From Microbacterium imperiale (GTDB lineage: Bacteria > Actinomycetota > Actinomycetes > Actinomycetales > Microbacteriaceae), in the NCBI RefSeq assembly GCF_017876655.1, contig NZ_JAGIOK010000001.1, positions 496,001 to 560,000 of the forward strand: a stretch of DNA of 64,000 nucleotides. The letters are read 5' to 3'. The translations under genes and the position numbers were made by a program. Of the stretch, positions 29,786-53,703 are shown piece by piece. Each line of letters opens with the position of its first letter. Positions within the stretch are counted from its first letter, which is position 1. The notes beneath the pieces were generated by a model. It was not told the DNA's origin. It saw nothing but the letters and a program-made list of their open reading frames with translations, and did not search any database.

Positions 29786-29787
29786 TC

Positions 29788-31226: not shown

Positions 31227-33980
31227 ATGACCTACCGCGCCGGTGAAGTCGAAGTCCTCCTGACCGTCAACGACAAGGATCTCTCCCGGGCCGACAAGAA
31301 CGTCGAGGCCACCGGGAAGAAGATCGAGAAGAACCCCCTCAAGGTGAAGGCGGATACCGCGGACGCCCTCGAAAGACTTGATCGAGTCACGGACGAAGCG
31401 AAGAAGCTCGTCTCGAAGGACGTCGCCCTGCAGGTGAATGCCCGCATCGAGGGAGCGGAGAAAAACCTCGACCGGACGCAGAAACGCCTCGAGTACCTCC
31501 GTTCGGTGGAGACGGAACTCGACGTGTCCGCCGACATCCGTCGGGCGGAACGCAGCCTCTCCCGGATCGAGAGTCAGGTCGACGCGCTCAAGCGGGCGCG
31601 GGCGACGATGGAAGTCGACGTCGCCGACGAGGGGGCTCGGCAGAAGCTCCGGGCCGTCGCGGACTATGCCGGCGAAGCGGGCAGCGCCGGCGGAGAAGAC
31701 GCAGGAGAAAACCTCGCGAGCGGCATCGTCGGGGCGCTCGCATCGATCCCCATCGCAGGCGCCGTCGTCGGGATCGGATACGCGGCCGGCCAGGCGCTCC
31801 GGGAAGCGTTCGAGAACGGCCTGCAGGTCGAAGCCGGGTACGACCGCCTCGCGGCTCTCACCGGCCTCAGCGACATGAACGCCCTGCGCGTCGGCCGCGG
31901 CGCCGCCGAAGCCTACGCGGCGGGGTTCGGCGAGTCGATCGAGTCGAACATGGATCTCACCCGACTCGCCATTCAGTTCGACCTCATCGACGCGGAAGCG
32001 ACAACTCAGCAGTCGCAGAAGGTCGTTGAGGGGCTCGCCGGTATCGCTGACGTTCTCGGGGAAGACGTCCAGCCCGTCGCGCGGGCGGTGACGCAACTTC
32101 TCCGCAGCGGCCTTGCGCGGTCAGCGCAGGAAGCTTTCGACATCCTCGCGACCGGTCAGCGGGAAGGTGTGAATCTCAGCGAGGACCTTCTCGACACGCT
32201 GTCGGAGTACGCGTCGACCTTCGAGTCGATCGGTCTCACCGGTGGGCAGACGCTCGGGCTGCTCAACCAGGGCCTGCAGGCCGGCGCGCCGAATACCGAC
32301 TTCTTCGCTGATGCGCTCCGCGAGCTCGGCATCCGGATTCGCGAAGGCGACGACGCGACGGCCGGATTCCTCGGCCAGCTGGGACTTCTCCCCGATGAGA
32401 TGCAGAGAGCGTTCGTCGAAGGCGGGCCAGCGGCGCGAGACGCGTTGGACGCGATCTTCGATCGCCTGCGCGATACCGACCCGGTCGACCGGAACCGGAT
32501 CGCTGTCGGCCTGCTCGGCACCCAGTTCGAGGACCTGCAGCTCGACCTCTCGAGGATCGACCTCAGCAACGCCGAGGAACAGCTCGACGGGGTCGCCGGC
32601 TCCGCACAGCGCATGTTCGACACGCTCGCCGACAACGACGCCAGCAAGATCGAGCAGGCACGGCGAAGCATCGAGGTCGCCGCGCAGGGCATCCAAGGGG
32701 CCCTCGCGTCCGCGTTCGCTGAACCCCTGGGAGACGCAGCCGACTGGATCGCTTCCAACCGGGGCCCGGTCCTGCAGTTCTTCCGGGACCTCGTCAACGG
32801 CGCCCTCGACTTCGGCATCGCAGCGAACACCGCCGTCGGCGACTTCGTCTCGGGACCGCTCGAGCAGATGGTCGAGGGACTCAAGAACGCCCGGCGGATC
32901 ATCGCTCCCTTCGCAGACACGACCGAGCTCGACGAGTTGCAGGACTCGATGCGGGCGTTCGGCGACAGCACGGATGCCGGGAACGAGAAGCTCGAGGAGA
33001 TGCGGGACCGGTTCAACGAGTTCATCGATCCTCAGATCATCCTCGGGGAGCTGAGTGACCGAAGCCGGGACTTCGCCTCGGCGCTCGACTCCATCACCGC
33101 GGCGCAGGACGGCAGTGCTGAGGCGGCGACGGCTCTCGGAGATCAGACTCGTGCGGCGGTTGATGCTCTGTACGCGCAGCAGACCGCGGCGACGAGCGCC
33201 GGCCAGGGACAGAGCGAGCTATCGGAACTGTGGCGGAACGGCGCCGGAGCGCTCAGCGAGCAACTGCGGGCGATGGGACTGACCGAACTGCAGACGTGGC
33301 AGCTCATCGCTGCGTATGCCGGCATCCCGGAGTCGGAGATCACCGAGATTCTCTCGAACGCGCCCGACGAGCAGTCGAAGGTGCAGGCACTTGTCGATCG
33401 AGTGAACACGATCCCTGACGGTGAGACGACCATCTACGCCGACACCTCACCCGCCGAAGAGGCCATCCGCGCCCTTCGCTCGAGCATCTCTGCCGGCGCC
33501 ACTCTCGGCGTAGCGGTGGCGACGTCGGGCGGTATCCCGCGCGCGAACGGCGGTCCGATCATCGGTCCCGGCGGTCCTCGCGACGACCTCGTGCCCGTCA
33601 TGGCCTCGAACGGTGAGCACATGCTCACCGCCGCGGAGGTCAGAGCCGCGGGCGGGCACGGCGCGATCTACCGTCTTCGTCGAATGCTCGCGGACGGTGC
33701 GCTGCATCTAGCTGGAGGCGGCCCGGTGGAGAAGGTGCCCTCCGCGACCTGGCAGACGGCGCCTCCGGTCGAGCCGGGTGACGTTGCAACCTATCGCGTG
33801 GTCGCCGGTCAGCGCATCCGCGTCGACGGCGACCGCGCGGAACCGGCCCGCGTCGACGGCGACCGCGCGGTGATCGAGATTCATCACCACGGCGACAACT
33901 ACTCCTACGACCCGAGCGATATCGCTCGAGAGCAGCGTGAGCATCTCGCCCGCGCACTCGACGCCCACGGCCTCGGCTGA
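31227..33980 (+). CDS. Phage tail tape measure protein
   Basis: A 917-residue protein, the longest in the element. It has the family layout: a long coiled-coil N-terminus (about 1-140, many Glu/Lys/Arg heptads), a hydrophobic Gly/Ala segment (SIPIAGAVVGIGYAAGQAL, about 175-195), a helical middle, and the C-terminal GGIPRANGGPIIGPGGPRDD.. Gly-rich motif followed by LVPVMASNGEHMLTAAEV. Length sets tail length in siphophages. It appears intact. There are no chaperone, tube or baseplate genes beside it. Confidence 0.93.
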   Translation: MTYRAGEVEVLLTVNDKDLSRADKNVEATGKKIEKNPLKVKADTADALERLDRVTDEAKKLVSKDVALQVNARIEGAEKNLDRTQKRLEYLRSVETELDVSADIRRAERSLSRIESQVDALKRARATMEVDVADEGARQKLRAVADYAGEAGSAGGEDAGENLASGIVGALASIPIAGAVVGIGYAAGQALREAFENGLQVEAGYDRLAALTGLSDMNALRVGRGAAEAYAAGFGESIESNMDLTRLAIQFDLIDAEATTQQSQKVVEGLAGIADVLGEDVQPVARAVTQLLRSGLARSAQEAFDILATGQREGVNLSEDLLDTLSEYASTFESIGLTGGQTLGLLNQGLQAGAPNTDFFADALRELGIRIREGDDATAGFLGQLGLLPDEMQRAFVEGGPAARDALDAIFDRLRDTDPVDRNRIAVGLLGTQFEDLQLDLSRIDLSNAEEQLDGVAGSAQRMFDTLADNDASKIEQARRSIEVAAQGIQGALASAFAEPLGDAADWIASNRGPVLQFFRDLVNGALDFGIAANTAVGDFVSGPLEQMVEGLKNARRIIAPFADTTELDELQDSMRAFGDSTDAGNEKLEEMRDRFNEFIDPQIILGELSDRSRDFASALDSITAAQDGSAEAATALGDQTRAAVDALYAQQTAATSAGQGQSELSELWRNGAGALSEQLRAMGLTELQTWQLIAAYAGIPESEITEILSNAPDEQSKVQALVDRVNTIPDGETTIYADTSPAEEAIRALRSSISAGATLGVAVATSGGIPRANGGPIIGPGGPRDDLVPVMASNGEHMLTAAEVRAAGGHGAIYRLRRMLADGALHLAGGGPVEKVPSATWQTAPPVEPGDVATYRVVAGQRIRVDGDRAEPARVDGDRAVIEIHHHGDNYSYDPSDIAREQREHLARALDAHGLG

Positions 33981-35446: not shown

Positions 35447-35478
35447 GCGACAGCGGCAATGGTGGAGATGGGGGGAAT
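35447..35478. repeat. att-right direct repeat within tmRNA
   Basis: The 32-base copy identical to 25106-25137. Bases 35460-35478 are the last 19 nucleotides of mature tmRNA, so integration leaves the tmRNA sequence unchanged. Confidence 0.95.
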
Positions 35479-35829
35479 CGAACCCCCGTCCATCGCTGAG
35501 ATACGGCGTCTTCTCCGGGCGCAGTCTGTAGAGGCGTTCTGCTCGGCCCCGACTTTCAGTACAGACACATAAGTCGACGGGCCCAGTCCGGGAAGAGTCC
35601 CGCGTGACGTCCGGACGCCGTCACGCAGCAAGATCCCTAGATGACGCCAGGGTCCGTGGCGGGATCACACACGGTCTGACGGACTATCGGGCTCGCTTAT
35701 GCAGCGAGGGCGAAGTCAGTGCGCTTGGATTCGGCACTTATTGGTTTGCAGAGAGCGTTAACGAGATAACTCTGCATCCTCGGCCCGCTTCTCGCCGACA
35801 CACAGGCGATGTCGAAACCGATCATCCCC
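35460..35829 (-). ncRNA. ssrA: tmRNA
   Basis: A 370-nt transfer-messenger RNA. The 5' end GGGGATGATCGGTTTCGAC and 3' end CATCTCCACCA form the tRNA-like acceptor (GGGGATG with CATCTCC, one G-U), and GGGGGTTCGATTCCCCC is the T arm. The mRNA-like part ends ..SKRTDFALAA followed by TAA (35699-35697). If the resume codon is the GCT at 35756-35754, the tag is ALCKPISAESKRTDFALAA, but that first codon is inferred. CCA is encoded. smpB lies 1 kb away. The last 19 nt are also the att site of the element. Confidence 0.95.
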
Positions 35830-40350: not shown

Positions 40351-41640
40351 ATGCCAGCCAGCGACGCGAACGAGCCGATCCGACGAGTTCTCTGGCGACT
40401 CGCCCCGATGATCTACGGGCCCACGACCCTCTTCGGCCTCGGCGAAGGCGCCGTCATCCCCCTGATCCCGGTCATCGCGGTCCAGCTCGGGGCCGACGTC
40501 GCAACCTCCGCGCTCGTCGCCTCCGCCCTCGTCGTCGGCCAGCTCTGCGGCAACATCCCCGCGGGGTGGGCCGTCGCGCGCATCGGCGAACGCGCCACCA
40601 TGATCATCGCGGGCCTGCTCGCCCTCGTCGGCCTCGGCGCGATGGCCCTCGCGCCCGCGCTCGGCGTCTTCGCGGCATCCGTCTTCCTCATCGGCATCTG
40701 CGCGGCCGCTTTCGGGGTCGCCCGTCACGCGTTCATGACGACGCGCGTGCCGCTGACATTCCGGGCCCGCGCGCTGTCGCTGCTGGGCGGAAGCTTCCGG
40801 CTCGGCATGTTCGTGGGCCCGTTCATCGCGGCGGCGCTGCTGTGGATCTTCGGCGACGAGCATGCGACGATCTGGTTCTTCGGCATCTGCCTGATCGCGA
40901 TGATCGTCCTCGTCGCGTTCGGGCCCGAGCCCGAGAAGCGGCTGGGTCCGCCGCCCGCGGTCGCGCGCACCGTCGACGGCGAGGCGATCACCACCGCCCC
41001 CGTCCGCACGCGGCGCACGCCCGGCACCGGCGTCGTCCGGACGGCCTGGCGCAATCGCGACGTCCTCGCACGGCTGGGCGTCGCGGCAGCGTCGCTCTCG
41101 GCGTTGCGCTCGACCCGCCAGGTGCTGCTGCCCTTGTGGGGTGTCGCGATCGGACTGGACGGGTCGACGATCGCCCTCGTGGTCGGCGTCTCGGGAGCGA
41201 TCGACTTCGCGCTCTTCTACGCCAGCGGACAGGTCATGGACCGGTTCGGCCGGCTCTGGGCCGCCCTGCCGGCGATGCTCCTGATGAGTTCCGGGTTGAT
41301 CGCTCTGGGACTGACGGCAGCCAGCGAGCAGCCGGAACTGTGGTTCGCGCTGTTCGCGGCCGTCCTCGGCGTCGGCAACGGCCTGTCGAGCGGCATCCTG
41401 CTGACCCTCGGGGCGGACGTCGCGCCCGTCGCGAATCCGGCGCCCTTCCTCGGGTCGTGGCGCACGCTCACCGACGCCGGCGGCGCCGCCGCTCCGCTGC
41501 TGGTGTCGGGCATCACCGCGATCGCGTCGTTGCCGGTCGCGGCAGCGGTCATGGGCGGCGTCGGGCTGGTGGGGGCGATCGGGTTCATCCGCTGGGTACC
41601 GCGGTTCGTGCCGCGCGCGCGGAACGGAGATCGACCATGA
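40351..41640 (+). CDS. MFS transporter
   Basis: A 429-residue MFS protein with about 12 spans. The loop [16 protein letters not shown] follows helix 2, and a central loop (about 185-225) is rich in Pro/Arg. The ATG at 40351 follows GGAAGAG; the long in-frame extension upstream is antisense to prfB and is rejected. The stop overlaps the next gene's start by 4 bases (ATGA). This couples it to the GH114 lipoprotein, an unusual partner suggesting a sugar or oligosaccharide substrate. That last point is inference. Confidence 0.85.
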
Positions 41641-42533
41641 GACGAACGCGCCGCAGCACCTTCGCCCCGCCCGCCCGGACGGCCTTCGCCGCGGGGGCCC
41701 TCCTCCTCGCGCTCACCGCGCTCGTCGGCTGCTCCAGCGCAGGAACGGATGCCGCTCCCGCGAGCACGAAAGACGCCGGCGAGGTCTCCGCGGACGCATC
41801 TCCGGCGGTCGAGGTCGTCCGGCCGCCCGCCGGCGCGCAACCGGACTATCAGCTGGGCGGCGCGTACGAGCCGGCCGCCGGCGTCGGAATCGTGGGGCGC
41901 GACCGCGAAGCCGAACCCGCGGAGGGCCGCTACTCCATCTGCTACGTCAACGGCTTCCAGACGCAGCCGAACGAGCGACAGCTGTGGGACCCCGAGCTGC
42001 TCGTTACCGTCGATGGCGAGCCGCTCGTCGACCCCGACTGGCCCGACGAGATCCTGCTCGACACCTCGACGGCCGAGAAGCGCGACCGCATCCTCGCGCT
42101 CGTGGAGCCGTGGATCCGGGGCTGCGCGGCGGCGGGCTTCGACGCCGTCGAGTTCGACAACCTCGACTCGTTCACCCGCTCCGAGGGCCTGCTCGACATC
42201 GACGGCAACCTCGCCCTCGCAAGCGCCTTCGTCGCCGTCGCCCACGACGCGGGACTCGCGGCGGGCCAGAAGAACGCCGCGGAGCACGCGCCCCTTCTGC
42301 GCGATGAGGCGGGCTTCGACTTCGCCGTCGTCGAGGAGTGCGCGGCGTACAGCGAGTGCGGCGACTACACCGCCGTCTACGGCGATGCGCTGATCGACAT
42401 CGAGTACACCGACAACCTGCCGCGGGCGTGGTCGGAGATCTGCGACGATCCGGAGACGCCGCGTTCGGTCGTCCTGCGCGACCGCGCGCTCACCGTGGCC
42501 GGCGATCCCGAACACGTCGCCGCGCATTGCTGA
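41637..42533 (+). CDS. GH114-type lipoprotein (endo-alpha-1,4-polygalactosaminidase family)
   Basis: A 298-residue lipoprotein. An Arg-rich start, hydrophobic segment and lipobox ALVGC give Cys32 as the lipid site; an Ala/Asp/Pro linker follows. The catalytic domain has the GH114 pattern: SICYVNGFQTQPNERQLWDP, DEILLDTSTAEKRDRILAL, FDAVEFDNLDSFTRSEG and a late DIEYTDNLPRAW. PelA of the Pel exopolysaccharide system has a related hydrolase domain. It lies directly upstream of the GT2 synthase and is coupled to the MFS gene, so a role in trimming that polymer is plausible. Confidence 0.85.
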   Translation: MRRTRRSTFAPPARTAFAAGALLLALTALVGCSSAGTDAAPASTKDAGEVSADASPAVEVVRPPAGAQPDYQLGGAYEPAAGVGIVGRDREAEPAEGRYSICYVNGFQTQPNERQLWDPELLVTVDGEPLVDPDWPDEILLDTSTAEKRDRILALVEPWIRGCAAAGFDAVEFDNLDSFTRSEGLLDIDGNLALASAFVAVAHDAGLAAGQKNAAEHAPLLRDEAGFDFAVVEECAAYSECGDYTAVYGDALIDIEYTDNLPRAWSEICDDPETPRSVVLRDRALTVAGDPEHVAAHC

Positions 42534-42625: not shown

Positions 42626-44632
42626 ATGGTCTTCGAGACGACCGTGCACCGACAGGAGACGCGACGCGAGAACATGCGCCGCGCCCGGTCGGCGACGCGC
42701 CGGATGGCGCTGATCCGTCTCGTCATCGTGCTCGCCGCCGCCTCGGGCATCAACTACATCGCCTGGCGCTGGCTGGCTTCCGTCAACTGGGAAGCGTGGT
42801 GGATCGCCGTACCGCTCGTGGTCGCCGAGACGTACAGCCTCATCGACTCGCTGATCTTCGCGCTCGGGGCGTGGCGGCTGCGCGAGCGCCATGACGCTCC
42901 CCCCATCACCCGTCCGGTCACTGTCGACGTGCTCGTGACAACGTACAACGAGCCGCTCGACCTCGTCATGCGCACCGCCCGGGCGGCTCTCGAGATCCGG
43001 TACCCGCACCAGACCTGGATCCTCGACGACGGCGACCGCCCCGAGCTCCGGGCCCTCGCCGAGGCCGAGGGCATCGGCGTCATCACCCGCTCGCAGGCCT
43101 GGCGCGACCGGCCGCGGCACGCCAAGGCCGGCAACCTCAACAACGCCCTCATGGTCACCGAGGGCGAGTTCCTGCTCATCCTCGACGCCGATCAGATCCC
43201 CAAGCCGCAGATCCTCGACCGCACGCTGGGGTGGTTCGAGGACGATGGCGTCGCGCTGGTGCAGACGCCGCAGTGGTTCGTCAACGTTCCCCCGAGCGAC
43301 CCTCTCGGCAGCCAGGCGCCCCTCTTCTATGGCCCGATCCAGCAGTCGAAGGACGGTTGGAACGCCGCCTTCTTCTGCGGCTCCAACGCGATCCTGCGGC
43401 GCGAGGCGCTCATGCAGCTGGGCGTGTCGCGATACGTCGACGAGGTCACCCTCGCCGTCAACCGCGGTGTCCGATCGTCGCGCCGCATCCTCACCCGGGC
43501 TCGCCAGGAGCACGGCGACGATCCGCGGATCGCGGCGGCGCTCGACGCGGTGGGCGCGGCCCTCGACGAGGTCAAGGTGGAGATCGCCCGCGGCGACGCT
43601 CTGGCGGACGTGACCTACGCCTTCCAGGCCCGCATCGATCGGGTGCGCCGCGAACTCACCGATCAGGACCTGGCGAGCGTCCGCGATGAGCTGCGCGCCC
43701 TCGCCGAGATCACCGGCGACACCGAAGCGCTCGCGGTCATCGACGAGGTGACCCTCGACGCCCTCGGTGACCGCAGCCTCTCGCCGCTCGGCGCACTGGA
43801 ATCGATCAGCATGCTGGTCTCGTCGTTCGAGGTCGGCCGCGACGAAGAGGCTCAGGCGATCATGCCGCTGGCCACCATCTCGGTCACCGAGGACATGGCG
43901 ACCTCCATGCGACTGCACGGCCTCGGCTGGAAATCCGTCTACCACGACGAGGTGCTCGCGGTGGGTTTGGCCCCCGAGGACCTGCCGACCATGCTCACGC
44001 AGCGACTGCGCTGGGCGCAGGGCACGATGCAGGTGATGTTCCGCGAGAACCCGCTCGTGCAGCGCGGCCTGAGCTGGGGCCAGCGCATCATGTACTTCGG
44101 CACGATGTGGAGCTATCTGGCCGGTTTCGCGGGGCTGGTGTACATCGCCGCGCCGGTGCTGTACCTCTCGTTCGGCGTCATGCCGGTGCAGGCCTGGAGC
44201 GTGGACTTCTTCGTCCGCTTCATCCCGTTCTTCGTGCTCAACCAGCTGCTGTTCCTCGTCGTCGCCAACGGCAGACCGACATGGCGCGGCGCGCAGTACT
44301 CGCTGGCGCTGTTCCCGGTGTGGATCCGATCCGTGACGACGGCGTTCGGCAACGTCTACCGCGGCCGCGCGCTCGGCTTCTCGGTCACACCCAAGACACG
44401 CGCGGCCGAGGGACGTCCCCGGTGGGATCTCGTGCGGCCTCAGCTCATCGCCATGGCCGCGCTGGTGCTCTCGCTCGTCGCGGTCGCCATCCGCTACGCG
44501 GTGGGGCAGGCCGAGGGAATCGCGCCGCTCGTCAACATCGTCTGGGTGCTGTACGACCTCATGGTGTTCAGCATCATCATCCGCGCCGTGCTCTACACGC
44601 CGCCCTCGGACCTCGAACTGAAGGAGAACTGA
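42626..44632 (+). CDS. BcsA-like GT2 glycosyltransferase with a helical insertion
   Basis: A 668-residue processive polysaccharide synthase. Two N-terminal spans (about 27-50, 57-82) precede the GT2 domain with TTYNEP, DDGDRPE, ILDADQIPKP, the acceptor motif TEDMA (about 421-425) and QRLRWAQG (about 459-466). Four to six further spans follow. Between CGSNAILRREAL (251-262) and ISVTEDM (418-424) lie about 155 residues where BcsA has far fewer; roughly 145 of these (270-415) are charged and helical. There is no PilZ domain. GAGGGAGA at 42614-42621 favours the ATG at 42626. The product is unknown. Confidence 0.9.
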   Translation: MVFETTVHRQETRRENMRRARSATRRMALIRLVIVLAAASGINYIAWRWLASVNWEAWWIAVPLVVAETYSLIDSLIFALGAWRLRERHDAPPITRPVTVDVLVTTYNEPLDLVMRTARAALEIRYPHQTWILDDGDRPELRALAEAEGIGVITRSQAWRDRPRHAKAGNLNNALMVTEGEFLLILDADQIPKPQILDRTLGWFEDDGVALVQTPQWFVNVPPSDPLGSQAPLFYGPIQQSKDGWNAAFFCGSNAILRREALMQLGVSRYVDEVTLAVNRGVRSSRRILTRARQEHGDDPRIAAALDAVGAALDEVKVEIARGDALADVTYAFQARIDRVRRELTDQDLASVRDELRALAEITGDTEALAVIDEVTLDALGDRSLSPLGALESISMLVSSFEVGRDEEAQAIMPLATISVTEDMATSMRLHGLGWKSVYHDEVLAVGLAPEDLPTMLTQRLRWAQGTMQVMFRENPLVQRGLSWGQRIMYFGTMWSYLAGFAGLVYIAAPVLYLSFGVMPVQAWSVDFFVRFIPFFVLNQLLFLVVANGRPTWRGAQYSLALFPVWIRSVTTAFGNVYRGRALGFSVTPKTRAAEGRPRWDLVRPQLIAMAALVLSLVAVAIRYAVGQAEGIAPLVNIVWVLYDLMVFSIIIRAVLYTPPSDLELKEN

Positions 44633-44635
44633 CCC

Positions 44636-44971
44636 ATGATCGATCTCGATATCGACGTGCGAGACAACGGTCGGGTCGTGCGACCGCACGGCCGCCTCAC
44701 GATGGTGTCGGCGCGCGAGTTCCGCGAGCGGGTCAACGAGGAGATCAGCGCCGCCCCCGACTCCCTTGTGGTCGTCGACCTGTCGGATCTGCAGTTCATC
44801 GACTCGTCGGGGCTGGGCGCGCTCGTGGCCTGCCTGAAGTCGGCGCGCCAAGCCGGCGGGGACCTGCGCCTCGCGGCGCCCACCGAGCAGATCACCATGG
44901 TGCTCGGCCTGACCAACCTCGACCGCGTCCTGCGGCCCCGCGCGACCGTCGAGGAGGCCCTCGGTGGCTGA
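44636..44971 (+). CDS. STAS-domain anti-sigma-factor antagonist
   Basis: A 111-residue SpoIIAA/RsbV-like protein. The strand-helix pattern ends in the phosphorylation motif FIDSSGLGALV with the target serine at about 58. It begins 3 bases after the GT2 stop and overlaps the kinase-like gene by 8 bases, so synthase, antagonist and kinase are translated together. Unphosphorylated antagonists bind the cognate ATPase in this family; here the released partner may be the synthase itself rather than a sigma factor, since no sigma gene is present. Confidence 0.93.
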   Translation: MIDLDIDVRDNGRVVRPHGRLTMVSAREFRERVNEEISAAPDSLVVVDLSDLQFIDSSGLGALVACLKSARQAGGDLRLAAPTEQITMVLGLTNLDRVLRPRATVEEALGG

Positions 44972-45383
44972 CAAGATCGAGCGCTCGCTCCTCGCGGACG
45001 TCTCGCTCGAGAGCGTCGAAGCGGTCCACGACCTGCTCCTGGAATGGTTCGAGGAAGTCGGCGAGGTCGACCCCCGGGTCCGGTTCGCGTTCGAGACCGC
45101 CGTCGTCGAGATCGCCGGCAACATCGTCGAGCACACCGTTGCCGCTCAGGGTGCCGAAGGACGCCACTTCACGGTCGAGCTCGTTGCCGATGAGGCGGCG
45201 TTGACGGCCACGTTCCAGGATGACGCTCAGCCGGCGGAGCTGGACCTCAGCGCGGTGACGATGGCGGAAGAGGGCGCCGAGGACGGCCGTGGGCTCGCCC
45301 TCGCGCTCGCCAGCGTCGACCGGCTGGAGTACCGCCACGAGGGCGGGCGGAACATCTGGAGCATCGAGTGCCGCCGAGGCTGA
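44964..45383 (+). CDS. RsbW/SpoIIAB-type ATPase (serine kinase of the STAS protein)
   Basis: A 139-residue HATPase_c_2 protein. The N box is FETAVVEIAGNIVEH with Glu49 and Asn53; the G2 motif is EDGRGLALALASVD. The G1 motif reads DDAQP rather than DxGxG, a modest departure. It starts at GTG with GAGGAGG at 44951-44957. It should phosphorylate the STAS serine, while the PP2C enzyme at 47882-49075 removes the phosphate. No sigma factor is adjacent. Confidence 0.92.
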   Translation: MADKIERSLLADVSLESVEAVHDLLLEWFEEVGEVDPRVRFAFETAVVEIAGNIVEHTVAAQGAEGRHFTVELVADEAALTATFQDDAQPAELDLSAVTMAEEGAEDGRGLALALASVDRLEYRHEGGRNIWSIECRRG

Positions 45384-47857
45384 AGCGCGCGCTCGGCCGC
45401 CTCCTCTCGGCGATCGGCTTGGTCGTCGCCGCGCTGCTCATCGCAGCGCCCGCCGCCCATGCGGCCGTCGGCGACCCGGCGGACGACGGGCTGTGGTGGG
45501 GCGCCGAACTGGACTGGGGCGCCGACGGCCCCGACGGGTACGCCGATCGCCTCGGCGAGACGCCGGCGATGTACTCCATCCGATTGGCCTACCCGCTCGA
45601 CGAGCGGGCGCGGCAGGACTGGATGCGCGCGGCCACCTCCGCATCCGCTCAGGGAGCCGTGCTCGTGCTGAGCATGGAGCCCGGCATCAAGCTGAATGAT
45701 CTCACCGCCGACGACGCCGACACCTTCAACGAGATGCTCGAGAGGGTGCACCGTGACTACGGCACCCACCAGCTCGTCCGGTTCGCACCCGAGATGAACG
45801 GCTCGTGGGAGGAGTGGGGACAGCAGCCCCGCGAGTTCGTGCGTGCTTTCGAGACGGTCGCCGACGCGGTGCACGACGGGGACTCGGATGCCGAGATGGT
45901 ATGGGCCCCCTCCTACGGGGCGGGCTACCCGTTCGAGCGGGCGGACGGACGACTCGAGGATCTGACGGCGACGGACCGCCGGCTGCTCGACACGGACGGC
46001 GACGGTCTGCTCACCGAAGCCGACGACCCCTACGGTCCGTACTTCCCCGACCCCGACGCCGTCGACCGCGTCGGGCTCACGATGTTCTACTTCGGCAAAG
46101 GCGAGGCCGGCGCCGCCGCGGGGCGCGACGTGCCGTTGCAGGCGAACGAAGCGCCCGAACCGGGCGAGGTCGCCGAGCGCTTCGCCGAACGCTGGGGCTA
46201 CACGGTGCCGCAGTCCGAGTCCTTCTACGACCGCTTCGTGGTCGGCGAGGATCGTCCGCTGCTGCTCGACACCGGGGCTCTGTACGACCCCTCCCTGCCC
46301 GGCGACTCCGAACTCGCGGTCAAACAGGGCTGGTGGGAGCAGGTGCTGGCCGAAGCGGCATCCCGCCCTCGCCTGAACGCGATCACCTGGCTCGAGACGG
46401 TCCGGCGCGAGGCCGAGGCCGGCGCGAACGAGGTGGACTGGCGGGTGACCGCCTCGAGCGAGCTCGCTGCTGCGTTGCGGACCGACCTCGACGCCGCCGA
46501 CGTCCGGTGGGGCCCGATTACCCAGGTGATCACCCCGCAGCAGGGATCGGCGAGCACCGTGCAGGTACGCCAGGGCAACAACGAGATGAACTGGATCACG
46601 GGCAGCGCAGCCGTGCTCGCCGTCGCCTACCTCATCTCGGGGATCGTGGGACGGCTGCGCCCCGCCTGGCGCTATCCGGACGATTCGGCCACGCGTGACC
46701 TGCGGATCGACATGGTGCGCGGGTTCGTCATCATCGTCGTCGTCGTCACGCACATCGAGGTGCTCAGCCCGTATTCGCTGGCATCGCTCAACGTCATCGG
46801 TGCGATCACCGGTGCGGAGCTGTTCGTCCTGCTCAGCGGCATCGTGCTCGGGATGGTCTTCCCGGCAGCGATCAGACGCGGAGGCGAGTGGGCGGCAGCT
46901 GTGGGCGCGTGGGCCCGGGCGCGCAAGCAGTACCTCGTCGCGCTGGCCGTCATCCTTCTCGTGTTCATCCTGAGCTTCGTGCCGTTCATCGACGCCACGC
47001 CGGTCACGACGTTCACCGACCGCGGCACCGGAGCCGACGGCGAAGCGACGACGGGCCGGGTCTACGACCTGTATCCGAACGCGGATCGCCTGCTCGACTA
47101 CCCCCCGCCCTGGTACGCCGTGCGCCAGTTCCTCCTGCTCGAGATGGGGCCCTGGCCCTTCAACATCATGGGCCTGTTCGTCGTCCTGAGCCTGGCGTAT
47201 CCCGCCATCATGTGGCTCATCAAACGGCGGATGTGGTGGCTCGTGCTCGCCGCCAGCTGGGGCCTGTACGCCGTGCACGTATTCGTCCCCGACTTCGCGC
47301 CGCTGCCGTCGCAGTTCAACGCGGTGTTCCCGCTGCTGGCCTGGCAGGTGCTGTTCACGCACGGGCTCGTCATCGGGTACTACCGGCGGCAGATCATCGC
47401 CGCGCTCACCTCGCGGCCCGGCAAGATCCTGGTCGGCGTGTTCGTCGTCACGTACGCCGGGTTCCTGGTCTACCTGTGGGCGGGCGACCGCTTCGGGTTC
47501 ACGCCGACGCCCTTCCCCGCGGACCTCTACGGGATGCTGTACGACTCGGGCTACCAGCGCATCGACCTGCACTGGGGCCGGCTCATCGACCTGCCGCTCG
47601 TCCTCGTCAGCAGCTACGCGGTGCTGACGGTCGCGTGGAAGCCGATCGACAAGATCATGGGCTGGCTCTGGATCCCCCTCGGCCAGGCGAGTCTGTACGT
47701 GTTCATCGTGCACGTGTTCTTCGTGCTGGCCGTCGCCAACATCCCCGGTCTCGACCGCGAGAGTTTCTGGCAGGGAACGCTCATCCACACCGCTGTAATC
47801 GCCATCATCCTGGTGATGGTGAAGCGGAAGTTCCTGTTCTCGGTCATTCCCCGCTGA
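45368..47857 (+). CDS. GH26-like glycosidase domain fused to an OpgC-type acyltransferase
   Basis: An 829-residue two-part protein. A signal-anchor (about 10-32) precedes a (beta/alpha)8-like domain (35-380) with VRFAPEMNGSWEEWG, where Glu142 is the likely acid/base. An EF-hand-type loop DTDGDGLLTEAD is at 208-219. Where the nucleophile Glu is expected, the sequence reads LLLDTGALY. After a span at 409-429 comes a ten-span OpgC/acyltransferase domain from RDLRIDMVRGF. It overlaps the kinase gene by 16 bases, with GGAG as ribosome site. It probably acts outside the cell, cutting and acylating the GT2 product; that is inference. Confidence 0.85.
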   Translation: MPPRLKRALGRLLSAIGLVVAALLIAAPAAHAAVGDPADDGLWWGAELDWGADGPDGYADRLGETPAMYSIRLAYPLDERARQDWMRAATSASAQGAVLVLSMEPGIKLNDLTADDADTFNEMLERVHRDYGTHQLVRFAPEMNGSWEEWGQQPREFVRAFETVADAVHDGDSDAEMVWAPSYGAGYPFERADGRLEDLTATDRRLLDTDGDGLLTEADDPYGPYFPDPDAVDRVGLTMFYFGKGEAGAAAGRDVPLQANEAPEPGEVAERFAERWGYTVPQSESFYDRFVVGEDRPLLLDTGALYDPSLPGDSELAVKQGWWEQVLAEAASRPRLNAITWLETVRREAEAGANEVDWRVTASSELAAALRTDLDAADVRWGPITQVITPQQGSASTVQVRQGNNEMNWITGSAAVLAVAYLISGIVGRLRPAWRYPDDSATRDLRIDMVRGFVIIVVVVTHIEVLSPYSLASLNVIGAITGAELFVLLSGIVLGMVFPAAIRRGGEWAAAVGAWARARKQYLVALAVILLVFILSFVPFIDATPVTTFTDRGTGADGEATTGRVYDLYPNADRLLDYPPPWYAVRQFLLLEMGPWPFNIMGLFVVLSLAYPAIMWLIKRRMWWLVLAASWGLYAVHVFVPDFAPLPSQFNAVFPLLAWQVLFTHGLVIGYYRRQIIAALTSRPGKILVGVFVVTYAGFLVYLWAGDRFGFTPTPFPADLYGMLYDSGYQRIDLHWGRLIDLPLVLVSSYAVLTVAWKPIDKIMGWLWIPLGQASLYVFIVHVFFVLAVANIPGLDRESFWQGTLIHTAVIAIILVMVKRKFLFSVIPR

Positions 47858-47881
47858 GCGGCGTCTCGGTGCGCGGCCGGA

Positions 47882-49075
47882 TCAGCGCACCGAGACGACC
47901 ACCGCGGTGACGTCATCGTCGATCACGTGCTCCGACACCCGGATCGCGAGCTGGTCGAAGAAGGCCTCGGCCTCACGGGCGCGCCGCAGGTCCTCGCCGA
48001 TGAGGCGAAGGCTCTCGAGCGTGCAGTCGTAGGCGTCGAGGGCGCCGTCCGACACACTCACGATCAGGTCCCCCGAAGCGACGGTCGTCTCCCCCGCCTC
48101 CCAGGCGGCGTCAGCGGGACGCAGGCCCAGCGGCAGGTTGCGCGAGCTCAACCGCTCGGTCGAGCCGTCGGGTCGCAGCAGCAGGGTCAGGCCGTGCCCG
48201 GCGTCGACGTAGGCGACGCGGCCCGAGCGCGGATCGATGACGGCATGGAAGAGGGTCGCGAACGTCTCGCGGTAGCGGGGCTCGTGACGCGCGAACTCCT
48301 CGACCGAGAGCATCGCCTCGACGGGCTCGAGGTGCGCACGGTCCTGCAGCGCGGCGATGAGCTCTTCGGCGAAGCCGCCCGCCAGCTCGCCCTTGCCCAT
48401 GACGTCGGCCAGCGTCACGATGATGCGATCGCCCACCTGCTGCCAGCTGCTGCGGTCGCCGCTGACACGGCCGTACGGGATGGCCAGCGACGCCAGGCGC
48501 ACCTCGCCGCCCGCCAGCTGATCCGCGCGCGCCGTGGCTGCCGCAGGATCGCGCTCGTTCGCCGCGGGGTCGCCCGGGGCGGCGGCATCCGGGTCGTCTG
48601 CGGGGTCGTCCATCCGCATCTCGGCCTGCGCCCACAGACCGAGCTGCTCGAACGCCTCGCGGTCGGACTCGGTGAGCTCGCGCGGCGACGAGTCGAGCAG
48701 GCACAGGGTGCCGACGGTCTCCCCGGCTTCGGTGTGGATCGGGTAGCCGGCGTAGAACCGGATGCCGTGCTCGGCGACGATCGCCCGGTCGGCGAACCGC
48801 GGATCGGCGCGGCCGTCGGGCACCTCGAGAACGGCCGGCTGCTTGACGGCCTCACCGCAGAAGGAGTCCTCGATGGGCGTGTGCCGGAAGTTCGAGGTGG
48901 ACGGCTGCGACTTCGTGAAGACCGTCTCGGAGTTCACGACGTTCATGACCGCGAAGTCGACCTGGAAGCGCTCGCGCGCGAGCCGGGTGATGCGGTCGAA
49001 GCGCTCCTCGGGCGGACTGTCCATCAGTCCCAGCCGTGCGACGGCTTCGTCGTTGGATGCGATCTGCTGAGTCAT
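47882..49075 (-). CDS. GAF-PP2C (SpoIIE-type) serine phosphatase
   Basis: A 397-residue protein. Residues 15-155 are a GAF sensor (RFQVDFAVMNVVNSETVFTK, SFCGEAV, FYAGYPI, GTLCLLDS). An acidic linker leads to a PPM phosphatase with metal residues in LADVMGKGELAG, VSDGALDAY and DDDVTAVVV. The ATG at 49075 has GGAGGGGGAG upstream; a start at 49132 is rejected. It is convergent with the polysaccharide operon and is the obvious phosphatase for the STAS protein. The GAF part resembles redox or light-sensing ones; the ligand is unknown. Confidence 0.92.
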   Translation of the reverse strand: MTQQIASNDEAVARLGLMDSPPEERFDRITRLARERFQVDFAVMNVVNSETVFTKSQPSTSNFRHTPIEDSFCGEAVKQPAVLEVPDGRADPRFADRAIVAEHGIRFYAGYPIHTEAGETVGTLCLLDSSPRELTESDREAFEQLGLWAQAEMRMDDPADDPDAAAPGDPAANERDPAAATARADQLAGGEVRLASLAIPYGRVSGDRSSWQQVGDRIIVTLADVMGKGELAGGFAEELIAALQDRAHLEPVEAMLSVEEFARHEPRYRETFATLFHAVIDPRSGRVAYVDAGHGLTLLLRPDGSTERLSSRNLPLGLRPADAAWEAGETTVASGDLIVSVSDGALDAYDCTLESLRLIGEDLRRAREAEAFFDQLAIRVSEHVIDDDVTAVVVSVR

Positions 49076-49173: not shown

Positions 49174-49611
49174 TCACTGCAGCACGGTTCGGCTGGTCGC
49201 GGTCGCCTCGATCCGCACTCCCTCGGGTACGAACAGCGTCGACACCGGCGGATGCCAGGTCGTCGCGACGGTCACGCGCGCGGACAGGCCGTCGGGGCTG
49301 TCCGCACGTACCAGCGCCGCGCCGGGGGTCGCGCCGACAACCTGCCGAGCCAGATCCTCGACCGCGCCCCGATCGAGACGAGCGGATGCCGCGCCCCCGT
49401 CGACCACGACCGTGAAGCCGTCCGCAGCGGCCAGGGCAGCGGCATCCGCCACGGTGTCGGCGTGCTTGCGGGCGAGGTACAGGCTCGACGCGTCGATGGT
49501 GACGAGCACGAGCACGACCGCCAGCGCCGCGTATCCGAGCGCGAGGATCAGCACGCTGCCGTCCTCCTCCCGACGCAGAGCGCTGCCACGGCAGGGCGAG
49601 CGGTGGCTCAT
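49174..49611 (-). CDS. TadG/Rv3654c-like pilus-locus protein
   Basis: A 145-residue protein. Basic N-terminus, then EDGSVLILALGYAALAVVLV, a single span typical of the TadE/TadG pseudopilin class, and an AHA-type repeat (ADTVADAAALAAADGF) common in helicase/secretion-like TadG proteins. The rest is an extracellular beta-rich domain. The ATG at 49611 overlaps the preceding stop by 4 bases; the longer reading is antisense-like and rejected. Confidence 0.8.
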   Translation of the reverse strand: MSHRSPCRGSALRREEDGSVLILALGYAALAVVLVLVTIDASSLYLARKHADTVADAAALAAADGFTVVVDGGAASARLDRGAVEDLARQVVGATPGAALVRADSPDGLSARVTVATTWHPPVSTLFVPEGVRIEATATSRTVLQ

Positions 49612-50087
49612 CGCGTCCCCCAGAGGCGCGACATCCGCTGCACCGCGACCGCCTCGACGGGAACTCGTGCCCAGCGGTCGAGCCCGAGCACCGGCGGCAG
49701 CAGTGGCAGCGGCACCTCCGTGCGCGCCGTCACGGTGACGAGGCCTCCGGCCTGGGGGCAGGCGCCCGAGGTCGGGCACGAGACGCTCAGGTCGATGGCG
49801 CCCGCCTCGACGCCATACTCGTCGGCTATCGCCTGGGCGATGCGTTCAGCGCGCCCGTCCGCGGCATCCGGTCCGCTCGCGAGGGCGATCGCGCGAGCGA
49901 CGTGCCGCGCCGTGGCTTGAGTGGCCCACGCGTGGGTCTGCACGACGCCTAACGCGACCGCGAGGTACGCGATCGGGACGAGCAGGATCAGCCCGGCGAC
50001 CAGGAACTCCAACGACGCCGACCCTTCCTCGGTCGGACGGACCGCCCGGGCCCACCGGCCCTCAACCGGTCTCGTCGGCCGGCGCAT
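49608..50087 (-). CDS. TadE-like pilus-locus protein
   Basis: A 159-residue protein with the pseudopilin-type start EEGSASLEFLVAGLILLVPI and a following extracellular part with two cysteines (SVSCPTSGACPQAGG) able to form a disulfide. It starts inside the previous gene (26-base overlap) and its stop overlaps the next start. TadE-like minor pilins initiate or tip Flp pili. Confidence 0.85.
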   Translation of the reverse strand: MRRPTRPVEGRWARAVRPTEEGSASLEFLVAGLILLVPIAYLAVALGVVQTHAWATQATARHVARAIALASGPDAADGRAERIAQAIADEYGVEAGAIDLSVSCPTSGACPQAGGLVTVTARTEVPLPLLPPVLGLDRWARVPVEAVAVQRMSRLWGTR

Positions 50088-50448
50088 GGGCTGTCACCTC
50101 CCACCCGCCGGGTATTCCGAGCAGACCGACGAGCGGCACCGTGACGCGCAGCGACACCTCGATCGCCGGGTAGCCGCGCGATGAGGTGCGGCGCACGTCG
50201 GCCCCCTGGACGAGTTCCCCTCCGATCGTCCGGGCGACGATCTCGCGCGCCCGATCGCCGCCTGCGTCGTCGGGTACGTCGGCGAGCGACGCGTGGTAGG
50301 CCCCGTCGATCGCGGCGTCATGCGCCACTGCCCGCACGTAGACGGCGAGCGCGACTTGGAGGACGCCGAGGGTGAGGACGGTGAGCAGCGCGCCGACCAT
50401 CACGAACTCCGCGGCCGCCGAGCCCCGCTCATCCGAAGCGAGCCTCAC
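50062..50448 (-). CDS. TadE-family pilus-locus protein
   Basis: A 128-residue TadE-like protein: DERGSAAAEFVMVGALLTVL gives a prepilin-like Glu-5 motif and one span, then a small extracellular domain. It starts at GTG (50448), one base after the upstream gene's stop. It forms a tightly packed pair with the next TadE-like gene. Confidence 0.85.
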   Translation of the reverse strand: MRLASDERGSAAAEFVMVGALLTVLTLGVLQVALAVYVRAVAHDAAIDGAYHASLADVPDDAGGDRAREIVARTIGGELVQGADVRRTSSRGYPAIEVSLRVTVPLVGLLGIPGGWEVTAHAPADETG

Positions 50449-50449
50449 G

Positions 50450-50641
50450 TCACAGCCCCGACACCCGCGCGATCGCCTGCTCGAAGAGGTTCGACAGCGC
50501 CGGTCCGGCGAGCGCCCAGATCACGACGACGAGCCCCGCCGTCATGAGGGTGACGAGCACCCAGCCGGGGACGTCGCCGCGATCGTCCTCGCGCAGGGTC
50601 GGGTGTGTGCGGGCGAGGGCCGCCCGTCGGGAAGCACGCAT
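50450..50641 (-). CDS. Small Flp-pilin/DUF4244-like membrane protein
   Basis: A 63-residue protein with an Arg-rich N-terminus (MRASRRAALARTHP), an acidic stretch and one span GWVLVTLMTAGLVVVIWALA, ending in an amphipathic helix. Placement between TadC and TadE-like genes is where the Flp pilin or the related DUF4244 protein sits in actinobacteria. The classical Flp processing motif is not obvious, so the pilin role is tentative. Confidence 0.6.
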   Translation of the reverse strand: MRASRRAALARTHPTLREDDRGDVPGWVLVTLMTAGLVVVIWALAGPALSNLFEQAIARVSGL

Positions 50642-50661
50642 GCTTCTCCTCTCTCTCAGGG

Positions 50662-51579
50662 TCAGATCCCCAGCCGCAGCATGACGATGCCGGGGAAGAC
50701 GGCGAACAGGACCGACAGAGGCAGCACGAGGAAGACCAGTGGCAGCAGCATGAGGATCTCCTTGCGCCCGCCCTGTTCGATGAGACCGCGCTTGGCGTCC
50801 TCGCGCGCGTCCGCCGCCTGCGCCTGCAGCACCTGGGCCAGCGGCGCACCGCGGTCGATCGCGGCGACGAGCTGGTCGACCGCGCGCCCGACGCTCGCGA
50901 CGTCGGCGGTGCGGGCGAGATCGCGGAGGGCATCGGTCAGCATCGAGCCGGTCGTCGTGGCGAGCACGGCATCGCGTACCTGAACCGTCAGCTCACCGGC
51001 ACCGATCTCGCCCACGCGACGAAGAGCGTCGAGCAGGCTCTCTCCCGCCGCGAGACACAGTGCCAAGAATTCGAGCACCATCGGCACGTCCTCGCGGATG
51101 CGGCGCAGTCGCCGGCGCGCGGCGGCGACGAGCATCAGGTGCGACGCGAGCACGGCGCCGCAGGCGGTCGCGACCGGCAGCAGCGCGGTGCCGGCCCACG
51201 CCTGTCCCGCGACGGCGAGCGCCACGACCGCGCCCGCTCCCCCGAACAGACCGACGAGACCCGCGAACAGCTGCCGCGCGCGGAAGCCCGTCACCGAGAC
51301 CGACCACCCGGCCTGGCGGAGCAGCCGCTGCGCCGAGGCGGTGTCGCCGACGGCCTCGATCCATCGCCTCGGTCCCCTCATCCAGCCCGCCGCCCCCGGG
51401 ACGACGGGCTCCAGAGGTGTGAGTCCCCGGGGGTCGGCGATGTCGCGGACATACGGCGCGATGCGGCGCGCGAGCGTGGGCGCCGCCCAGCGCGGCATCC
51501 GTGTCGCCATCAGCAGCACACCCGCTGCCATTGCGGCACCGAGCAGCACCGACACGGCCGCATCCGTCGCGGCGGTCAT
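50662..51579 (-). CDS. tadC: TadC-like type II secretion F-domain protein
   Basis: A 305-residue inner-membrane platform protein. A T2SSF domain (EDVPMVLEFLALCLAAGESL, then QLVAAIDRGAPLAQVL) follows two N-terminal spans, and a last span ends the protein. Its ATG overlaps the tadB stop by 4 bases. With TadB it forms the membrane base of the Flp pilus machine. Confidence 0.88.
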   Translation of the reverse strand: MTAATDAAVSVLLGAAMAAGVLLMATRMPRWAAPTLARRIAPYVRDIADPRGLTPLEPVVPGAAGWMRGPRRWIEAVGDTASAQRLLRQAGWSVSVTGFRARQLFAGLVGLFGGAGAVVALAVAGQAWAGTALLPVATACGAVLASHLMLVAAARRRLRRIREDVPMVLEFLALCLAAGESLLDALRRVGEIGAGELTVQVRDAVLATTTGSMLTDALRDLARTADVASVGRAVDQLVAAIDRGAPLAQVLQAQAADAREDAKRGLIEQGGRKEILMLLPLVFLVLPLSVLFAVFPGIVMLRLGI

Positions 51580-52439
51580 CGCGTCCACCGCCGCGGCTCG
51601 GGCAAGCGGCCGATGCGCAGCATCATCCGGTACGCGCTGAACGACACCGCGGCCCCCACGAGGATGAGGACACCGCCCTCGGGACTCCCGTAGGCGCGCG
51701 CACCCTCGGGGCGCAGCGCGAGCAGGGTGAGGATCACCCACGGCGCGACGAGCCCCAGCACCGCGGCGCCGTGGATCCAGGACTGGCGCGCCTCGATCTC
51801 GGACCGCAGCGTCGACTCGGTCCGCACCGACGTGGCGAGCGCCCGCAGCACCGGGACGAGCTCGGAGCCGCCCACCTGACGGGCCATCCGCAGCGTCTCG
51901 ATGATGCGATCGGCGACCGGGTCGGCAAGGGTCGCCTGCAGGCGCGCGGCGCTGGAGTCGAAGTGACCGGATGCCGCGATATCGCGGGCGAATCCGCGGA
52001 ACGCCGCGCGCAGCGGCGGCGGACCGTTCTCGGCGACCGAGGCGAGGGCGTCGGGCAGGGACATGCCCGCGCGCACCGATGCGATGAGCAGGTCGCAGAC
52101 GTCCGTCCACAGGGCTCGGCGAGCGCGGCGGATGCGACGCGCTCGTGCCCGCAGCCACGCGGTCGGGGCGACGGCACCCCCGGTTCCCGCAACCGCACCG
52201 ACCGCCGGCACCGCAGTGACCAGCCACGCGGTCGCCGCCGCGAGCGCCGCCGCGCCGATGCTGAACACGACGAGCCGCCCGCCCGGCGCGTGCGCGAACC
52301 CGGCAGCCTGAAGGAGGGCCTGCGTCCGACCATCACCGGCCCGCGCGCGCCGTACCCTCGGCTCGCGGCGTGGCCAGACCCACGGAGAAACACCGAGCAC
52401 CACTCCGGCGCCCAGCAGAGCACCCCAGACGACGGTCAC
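51576..52439 (-). CDS. tadB: TadB-like type II secretion F-domain protein
   Basis: A 287-residue platform protein with two N-terminal spans, a T2SSF domain (TDVCDLLIASVRAGMSLPDA, then ETLRMARQVGGSELVPVL) and a C-terminal span. The GTG at 52439 overlaps the tadA stop (GTGA). The same frame stays open upstream into tadA, so automatic callers may join it to the tadA N-terminus; that is an artefact of the tadA frameshift. Confidence 0.87.
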   Translation of the reverse strand: MTVVWGALLGAGVVLGVSPWVWPRREPRVRRARAGDGRTQALLQAAGFAHAPGGRLVVFSIGAAALAAATAWLVTAVPAVGAVAGTGGAVAPTAWLRARARRIRRARRALWTDVCDLLIASVRAGMSLPDALASVAENGPPPLRAAFRGFARDIAASGHFDSSAARLQATLADPVADRIIETLRMARQVGGSELVPVLRALATSVRTESTLRSEIEARQSWIHGAAVLGLVAPWVILTLLALRPEGARAYGSPEGGVLILVGAAVSFSAYRMMLRIGRLPEPRRWTR

Positions 52440-53615
52440 GGCCGGCTCCGGTAGACCGGCTTCACGACGATCTCGCCGTCGACCACCGCCCCGGTCGGCG
52501 CGGCGATCTCCGCGACTCGGCGCCGCCCGTCCGGATGGCGTTCGCAGTGCACGACGAGATCGACCGAGGCGGCGAGCGCCGCGCGTACGAAGGCGAGGTC
52601 GATGTTGCGGCCGGCCAGCAGTGGCAGCGCGGAGAGCTTGCGCAGCGCGTCTGACGCGGAGTTCGCGTGGATGGTCGCCGCCCCCGGCACTCCCGTGTTG
52701 AGCGCGAGCACCAGGTCGAGCGCCTCGGCGTCGCGCACCTCGCCGATCACGAGCCGGTCGGGACGCATCCGCAGCGCTTCCTTCACCAGCCGCCGCAGCG
52801 ACCTCGCCGCCGCCTTCCAGACTCGGCTGGCGGGCTTGGAGGGCGACGGTGTCGGGAAGGTCGACAGCGAGCTCGAACGTCTCCTCGACCGTGATGACGC
52901 GGTGCTCGGACGGGCCGGCTCCGACGAGCGCGCTGAGCATAGTCGTCTTGCCCGCGTGCGTGGCCCCCGAGACGACGATCGTGCATCCCCCCGCGACGGC
53001 TGCGCGCAGCATATCCGCCTCGCGCTGCGGCAGCGACCCCAGGGCGACGAGGTCATCGAGGGTGCGGTGGCTGCGCAGGAACTTCCGGACGTTCACCGCC
53101 CAGTGCCGAGTGATGTCGGGGATCGCGACGTGCAGGCGGGAACCGTCAGGGAGGGATGCGTCGGCGAACGGCTGGCTCAGGTCGACGCGGCGCCCCGTCG
53201 CGTGCAGCATCCGTTCGGCCAGGTCGCGCACCTGCGCCTCGGTCAGCGTCAGCGCGACCCGCTCGCTGCGTCCGCCCCGCGCCACGAAGATGCGGTCGGG
53301 GGCGTTGATCCACAGCTCCTCGACGCTCGGGTCATCCAGCAGCGCCTGCAGCGGCCCGTACCCCGACAAGGTCGCGAGGACCTGCCGCACCATCGACGCC
53401 TCGTCGTCCACCGGCGCCGCGCCGCGCGCGAGCGCGAAGTCGTTGTGATGACGCACCTCGGCCGCCGTCACCCGCTCCGCCGCATCCGGATGCTGCCCCG
53501 GGTCGATGCCCTCAGCGCGCAACCGGTCGCGCACCCGATCGATGAGGGCGAGCGCCGGCGGCGCCGACGCGACCGAGGACGACGGAAACGACTGCGGGAA
53601 GCTCACCCGCAGCAT
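52436..53615 (-). pseudogene. tadA: tadA pilus ATPase, frameshifted
   Basis: A CpaF/TadA-type secretion ATPase in two frames. The first frame has the N-domain, LSGYGPLQALLDDPSVEELW, Walker A VVSGATHAGKTTMLSALV and TVEETFELAVDLPDTVALQA. At about 52799-52805 the frame is lost, and the second frame continues with SLRRLVKEALRMRPDRLVIG (Walker B), GVPGAATIHANSASDAL and the stop at 52436. Two bases (TC) appear missing after GAGGTC, or one added. The rest is well preserved, so this is a recent mutation or a sequencing error. Start 53615 is uncertain; a GTG at 53606 is an alternative. Confidence 0.85.
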
Positions 53616-53703
53616 CCTGCTCAGACGCTGCGCAGAGCGTCGGGAAGTTTCCACAAGCGAGGTCGGTGGTACCCGAGAGGAATCGTGAACGATTCGTAAC
53701 ACT

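Follow-up and report, generated by a model that had tools for sequence, protein, structure and literature searches.

A STAS, kinase and phosphatase switch encoded with a BcsA-like synthase in Microbacterium imperiale and its relatives, with possible action on the enzyme itself

Results

Gene content of the locus

A 64,000-nucleotide stretch of the Microbacterium imperiale genome (NCBI RefSeq assembly GCF_017876655.1, contig NZ_JAGIOK010000001.1, forward-strand positions 496,001 to 560,000; genome size 3.17 Mb), called here the window, contains a gene for a processive glycosyltransferase of family GT2 resembling BcsA, followed by the genes for a STAS protein and an RsbW/SpoIIAB-type HATPase; a GAF-SpoIIE phosphatase of the PP2C type is encoded at the other end of the same locus (Table 1). 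Open reading frames and Pfam matches confirm that all of the genes named in the original prediction, which had been made from the letters alone, are present where it had put them, save that GH114 lies just outside the stated range, each match lying over its cut-off (Cellulose_synt 63.2, STAS 73.7, HATPase_c_2 43.9, OpgC_C 178.4, SpoIIE 94.1 and GAF 66.9 bits). The predicted coupling of the synthase to the antagonist and the kinase is borne out by a gap of 3 nt between the GT2 stop and the STAS start and by an overlap of 8 nt between the STAS and HATPase genes; the HATPase and OpgC genes overlap by a further 16 nt, and the phosphatase gene is, as had been claimed, convergent to this four-gene run. 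With a STAS protein bearing a DSxG serine, a HATPase_c_2 protein bearing N and G boxes and a SpoIIE-type PP2C, the locus contains a partner-switching module.

Table 1. Features of the synthase locus (positions in the window)
Feature	Positions	Strand	Evidence or remark
GT2 synthase, BcsA-like, processive, 668 aa	42626..44632	+	Pfam, PDB sequence match, Foldseek; motifs D,D,TED,QRLRW
GT2 helical insertion, residues ~267-414, between FFCGS and TED	43424..43867	+	Alignments, AlphaFold
STAS protein, 111 aa, proposed direct synthase effector	44636..44971	+	PF01740, PDB matches
Ser57 codon in DSSGLG; serine presumed to be phosphorylated, equivalent to Ser56 of SypA	44804..44806	+	Sequence
RsbW/SpoIIAB-type HATPase_c_2, 139 aa, GTG start, serine kinase by family	44964..45383	+	PF13581
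GH26-like and OpgC protein, 829 aa, GTG start, secreted or membrane	45368..47857	+	PF10129, AlphaFold/Foldseek
GAF-SpoIIE PP2C-type phosphatase, 397 aa, GAF 22-148, SpoIIE 215-396	47882..49075	-	Pfam
GH114 gene	41637..42533		Just upstream of the range 42626..49075

The synthase

The GT2 core is present, with its D,D,D,QxxRW residues and its transmembrane helices. The best Foldseek match is E. coli BcsA (9b8v), BcsA and plant CesA structures lead the list, and the sequence match to BcsA in the PDB covers residues 29-266 and 415-649. The unmatched stretch between them holds an insertion before TED that is absent from BcsA: the FFCGS-TED distance is 171 in the window protein, 133-134 in the five synthases of a kinase-less clade described below, 167-196 at the other loci measured and just 24 for the BcsA of Methylobacterium. 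In the AlphaFold model, whose mean pLDDT is 77, helices run through residues 259-296, 300-322, 326-363 and 387-399, with low confidence at about 360-420. We regard the insertion as real, and it remains a candidate dock for a regulator.

PilZ is the C-terminal regulatory domain in BcsA, and Pfam gave no PilZ match in the window GT2 up to an E value of 0.1. The score with the NCBI CelA equivalog model was 332 bits, short of the 699 required. On account of these two results, the product cannot be taken to be cellulose. No BcsB was seen among eight proteins scanned at the locus and beside it, a scan that did not extend to the remainder of the genome. The top named relatives of the synthase are from Microbacterium; at a Nesterenkonia locus (L073), the synthase frame is in two pieces.

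Conservation of the module with the synthase

Two samples were surveyed. A scan of GTDB genomes confirmed 569 stretches, the 80 best of which are called here the named loci, and a family set comprised 398 genomes drawn from a larger family, which we take from its named relatives to be the Microbacteriaceae. In the family set, 79 synthase matches were listed, and merging by coordinates those that were split in six genomes left 73 synthases in 71 of the 398 genomes. The two samples overlap in genomes (for example, L014 and L157), so that the 124 STAS proteins and 141 HATPases considered below include duplicates; contig ends cut some of the loci.

Of the 73 family synthases, 65 have a HATPase gene nearby and in the same orientation. 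The STAS gene immediately follows GT2 at 64 family loci, to which the fused L119 can be added; a PP2C gene is found at 57, in relatives often upstream of GT2 and codirectional with it, and all three, with the STAS downstream, occur together at 55. The 80 named loci give a similar account, with an adjoining downstream STAS in 60, a HATPase in 76 and, at any point of the fetched region, a PP2C in 65. The gene order met most often is PP2C, GT2, STAS, HATPase. Sorted into synthase with HATPase, synthase alone, HATPase alone and neither, the hand-counted genera (n=85) number 25, 2, 3 and 55 (Fisher test 5e-16, kinship uncorrected), and the table for the 398 family genomes reads 65/6/25/302, likewise uncorrected for kinship. 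The synthase is thus found in 27 of 85 genera and the kinase in 25 of these 27. On a wider scale the locus is rare: a phylum-wide sample of 396 genomes gave 2 with it at E 1e-100, and of the 9 listed genomes of the window's genus 2 have it, the window's own genome being included in both counts.

The link between switch and synthase is therefore real, and the actinobacterial neighbourhoods bear out the original prediction in that the partner-switching module is conserved with the synthase. Its further statement, of knowing no described system with this exact composition, also holds among open-licence papers, in which no described synthase with its own STAS, HATPase and PP2C was found; nothing of the kind was found in viral contigs and phages.

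The STAS, kinase and phosphatase proteins

The PDB matches of the window STAS are TM1442 and SpoIIAA-type antagonists. It is the sole stand-alone PF01740 match of the genome, and the window HATPase is the sole PF13581 match in a short frame. The DS[ST]G motif is kept in 120 of the 124 scored synthase-adjacent STAS proteins; the survey profile missed L119, which is fused and below threshold, and the motif of this protein was read separately. The N-box Glu and Asn, like the G2 Gly, are conserved in all 141 aligned GT2-linked HATPases, and 117 of these, including the window copy, have the G1 Asp. The remaining 24 belong to 23 named loci among L051-L091 and to L181. Their kinase activity is uncertain, although the scored adjacent STAS proteins keep DS[ST]G. 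In the window SpoIIE phosphatase, the Asp motifs of metal binding were recognised by eye. A second SpoIIE-type phosphatase of the window genome (G000:C1:1586894-1587436; L001, L104), with membrane helices recognised by eye, could feed the same stand-alone STAS.

A kinase-less clade and a GT2-STAS fusion

Eight of the 73 family synthases have no HATPase close by, and five of the eight (L118-L122), from two genera, form one clade (FastTree support 0.999) in a GT2 tree of 154 rows, which comprises 152 of the 153 loci and two outgroups after rows of 500 residues or fewer were dropped. In the five genomes, PF13581 matches occur only in frames of at least 322 aa, and SpoIIE gives partial matches only, at about positions 103-191. 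The stand-alone kinase and the RsbU-type phosphatase would, on this reading of the matches, have been lost.

The STAS is retained at all five loci. It is fused to the GT2 C-terminus in L118 and L119, each in a single open frame (26.4 and 23.0 bits against a Pfam cut-off of 22.6), and is a separate gene just downstream in L120-L122. Comparison of the two fusions shows STAS blocks that are 82% and 70% identical and a linker that is 48% identical, and the dip in second-position G+C stays in frame; because of this in-frame dip and the better conservation of the STAS blocks, a frameshift artefact is unlikely. A database search for the fusion returned the L118 protein (P0121, Pseudoclavibacter sp. 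13-3) and one further copy, P0122. Two other candidates were rejected: the tail of P0123 looks out of frame by eye, and in P0124 the synthase similarity ends at about residue 517, the text from there to the STAS looking out of frame.

All five clade members have another residue at the first serine of DSSG, the motif reading TPAG in L118 and L119, TASG in L120 and L121 and TAAG in L122; the 120 synthase-adjacent STAS proteins scored outside the clade all have DS[ST]G. The serine concerned corresponds to the one that is phosphorylated in SypA of Vibrio fischeri. Loss of this serine would lock the STAS in its unphosphorylated form. In L123 and L125, which also lack a close HATPase, DS[ST]G is intact and a short-frame HATPase is encoded at another place in the genome. 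The switch-less state of the clade could conceivably be ancestral rather than derived, as its position as the first branch among the actinobacterial GT2 proteins under a distant root would allow; opposed to this is the Nostoc relative described below, which has a STAS with DSSG, a SpoIIE and a HATPase nearby.

Sigma factors and the module away from the synthase

Three sigma queries from the window genome found no sigma-like protein at any of the 73 family loci, mostly with 6 kb searched on each side, in accordance with the claim that no sigma factor accompanies the switch. Around the 80 named loci, with up to 10 kb searched per side, five were found, all at least 5.4 kb from GT2. Sigma-70 region 2 is matched seven times in the window genome, the proteins being, as judged by eye, one of SigA type, five of extracytoplasmic function (ECF) type and one of FliA type; the FliA-type gene sits in a flagellar cluster, flanked by flagellin and other flagellar genes. 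No sigma factor of SigB/SigF type was recognised in this genome.

The original prediction would have been overturned had the regulators been found elsewhere in the company of a sigma factor and interacting with it instead. There were 51 HATPase matches away from the synthase, and the 16 loci read (L126-L141, same family) show that the regulators do occur elsewhere, with a DSSG-bearing STAS in 16 of 16 and a PP2C in 13 of 16. As to the sigma factor, an ECF gene was seen at only one of the 16, about 4 kb away. Among other arrangements, a Curtobacterium STAS-HATPase pair off the synthase is flanked by a putative regulator (L106-L109), and at L203, L208, L213 and L217 a STAS-HATPase-PP2C set stands upstream of the synthase with a second STAS downstream; a number of HATPase matches here fall in frames about 550 aa long, suggestive of HATPase-PP2C fusions.

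A relative of the synthase occurs outside the Actinobacteria, on a plasmid of Nostoc sp. UHCC 0926 (L218), the aligned pieces being 43% identical. Upstream of this GT2 lie a DUF3131 gene and a GH26-like gene, the latter scoring 19.2 bits and so slightly below the cut-off, and a STAS (FIDSSGLGAL), a SpoIIE on the other strand and a HATPase_c_2 follow within about 6 kb downstream, so that the cluster at 6059-16238 comprises GH26-like, DUF3131, GT2, PIG-L, STAS, SpoIIE and HATPase genes. This is a single cyanobacterial case, and the insertion of its synthase is located elsewhere in the protein than the actinobacterial one.

The GH26-like/OpgC protein and neighbouring genes

The protein encoded after the HATPase has an N-terminal GH26-like region (about residues 42-390) and an OpgC acyltransferase domain (residues 443-818). 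Pfam gave no GH26 call for it; the GH26 fold comes from the AlphaFold model, for which Foldseek ranks GH26 structures highest (the six leading ones with a TM by target of 0.65-0.69), lichenase and xylanase being among the first. Of the GH26 motifs, the Glu of FAPEMNG is present in the window protein and is Gln in the four Curtobacterium rows, and the residue at the nucleophile position is apparently not Glu. Because the two catalytic Glu positions are not both apparently conserved, hydrolytic activity is doubtful. Of the predicted glycosidase-acyltransferase, therefore, the OpgC domain and a GH26-like fold stand, and the glycosidase activity is in doubt. The protein probably acylates the polysaccharide extracellularly. 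A separate GH26-family gene was found in six proteins scanned from other loci (L049, L063, L071, L118, L119 and L121).

Relatives of the GH/OpgC protein are found at 40 of the 73 family loci and 38 of the 80 named loci. The GH114 gene, which overlaps a preceding major facilitator superfamily (MFS) gene (ATGA), stands beside the synthase at none of the 80 named loci and at one of the 73 family loci, namely that of the window, whose own protein was the query. We have therefore rejected GH114 and MFS as members of the system and regard GH114 as a bystander, and the view of six genes as one set was not upheld. Directly behind the phosphatase gene lie Tad/Flp pilus genes (49174-53702, minus strand; Tad-like, TadE, T2SSF and T2SSE domains). 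The window also contains a prophage or remnant at 25167-33980, where three of five scanned proteins gave integrase, head scaffolding and tail tape measure matches, and near it a transfer-messenger RNA gene at 35460-35829.

Discussion

A GT2 synthase of the BcsA type is accompanied in many actinobacterial genera by a STAS protein, an RsbW-type HATPase and a PP2C-type phosphatase, and what such a switch acts on has to be considered. We think it rather probable that the partner-switching module sets the activity of the synthase after translation, with the unphosphorylated STAS as the direct effector, in the manner of PilZ control of BcsA. We cast the STAS as effector, with the HATPase turning the system off and the GAF phosphatase turning it on, because the evidence from the kinase-less clade fits the precedents of SypA and SiaC. 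In such a mechanism, GT2 would make and export the polysaccharide, and the OpgC protein would probably acylate the product outside the cell; the GAF-PP2C phosphatase would sense a ligand and dephosphorylate Ser57 of the STAS; the unphosphorylated STAS would bind the cytosolic face of the synthase, perhaps at its C-terminus or its helical insertion, and turn it on; and the RsbW-type HATPase would turn it off by phosphorylating the STAS. The phosphorylation, the binding of STAS to GT2, the polarity (unphosphorylated being active), the ligand and the polymer are elements that we infer. The rare GT2-STAS fusion suggests that the STAS acts on the enzyme directly rather than on gene expression. The original prediction of direct control of the synthase is thus retained in view of the fusion and of the phosphosite that is replaced where the kinase is lost; it is modified in that the effector is more likely the STAS than the kinase.

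The kinase itself could nevertheless be the partner of the synthase: the HATPase would bind GT2 at the helical insertion and hold it inactive, and the unphosphorylated STAS would titrate the HATPase off. The 14 named Curtobacterium loci with a HATPase beside GT2 and the STAS elsewhere agree with this, as does the shorter FFCGS-TED distance of the five clade members that lack the kinase. Were it so, however, the STAS should be useless without the kinase, yet it is kept, fused or adjacent, in all five and also in L124. As the STAS was kept and even fused after the loss of the kinase, its job at the synthase would be independent of the kinase, and we consider titration of a GT2-bound kinase the less likely, though still viable, reading. 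Less likely still, in our view, is that the switch governs transcription by way of a sigma factor or transcription factor encoded elsewhere, with the operon merely co-expressing switch and output. Classically, RsbW-type kinases are anti-sigma factors, the window genome does have ECF and FliA-type sigma factors, and the trio is also found with no synthase nearby; on the other side stand the lack of a recognised SigB/SigF-type factor in that genome, the absence of sigma-like proteins from the 73 family loci and the fusion of the STAS to the synthase. That the genes are neighbours by chance or hitch-hiking, with no functional tie, is hardly credible: the patchy occurrence of the locus in phylum and genus would suit such an explanation, which is contradicted by the survey, with the kinase in nearly all synthase-bearing genera, a gene order conserved in most loci read and the fusion itself.

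Several observations weigh against the STAS as a direct effector of the synthase. The 14 Curtobacterium loci just mentioned consist of GT2 and then the HATPase, with neither STAS nor PP2C; a strong STAS match was found elsewhere in all eight such genomes searched, together with full-length SpoIIE matches, and lay beside a second HATPase in the four regions read (4/4). Three Arthrobacter genomes keep the PP2C-STAS-HATPase trio away from the synthase, whose own locus has neither STAS nor HATPase. The trio, which also occurs with no synthase nearby, is therefore a movable unit for which other outputs are possible. The loss of the G1 Asp in HATPases whose adjacent STAS keeps DS[ST]G means that the serine and an active kinase are not tightly tied. 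As for the kinase-less clade, two of its partial SpoIIE matches, in G620 and G572, score above the family cut-off and are read only tentatively as PrpC-type PP2C, two of the five members (L120 and L121, with TASG) retain the motif's second serine, and L124 (G597), which by the same searches lacks kinase and SpoIIE, keeps DSSG. The five genomes are moreover one clade and thus represent one evolutionary event.

Partner switches that act on enzymes are already known; what is new here is a synthase with its own switch, a testable candidate for a missing target. The closest parallel is the SypA/SypE system of V. fischeri, in which biofilm that depends on polysaccharide is controlled, at a level below transcription, by a STAS whose Ser56 is conserved; in the passages concerned, SypA is active when unphosphorylated, S56A is still active and the target is not known (PMC8256260, PMC10120452). 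Passages of a further paper agree on the level of action and name no target (PMC12369376). SypE is a single multi-domain response regulator that is both kinase and phosphatase, whereas the present locus encodes a separate kinase and a GAF phosphatase, and its STAS is coupled or, in relatives, fused to the synthase. HmpU/HmpV/HmpW of Nostoc is likewise described, in a passage of PMC8256260, as a partner switch linked to motility and polysaccharide with a target that is not known. The likeness to Hmp is one of description, and Hmp is not known to neighbour a BcsA-like synthase. For Pseudomonas SiaABCD, a passage of PMC7647112 that cites Chen et al. reports binding and activation of an enzyme, SiaD, by the small phosphoprotein SiaC; there the target is a diguanylate cyclase and the phosphosite Thr68, in contrast to the polysaccharide synthase proposed here. 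The three protein families are those of RsbU/RsbV/RsbW-SigB and SpoIIAA/SpoIIAB/SpoIIE in B. subtilis, but no sigma factor was found with ours. BcsA under PilZ control by cyclic di-GMP (c-di-GMP) shares the synthase core, and the fusion resembles it in having a C-terminal cytosolic regulatory domain; the window GT2 differs from BcsA in its lack of a PilZ match and its extra insertion before TED, and in L118 and L119 a STAS takes the C-terminal place.

It is possible, and we propose it only tentatively, that processive polysaccharide synthases have STAS proteins as regulatory subunits, both in Actinobacteria and on at least one cyanobacterial plasmid, that of Nostoc, that phosphorylation of the STAS serine does the job of c-di-GMP and PilZ, and that the missing targets of SypA and HmpV are of this kind, a synthase. 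Polysaccharide partner switches lacking a known target are an open question in the passages cited (PMC8256260, PMC10120452). Here, gene order ties the switch to one enzyme, and the fusion and the clade that has lost the phosphosite make the target directly testable. If direct control by the STAS is true, it would represent a sigma- and c-di-GMP-independent gating of BcsA-like synthases across many actinobacterial genera.

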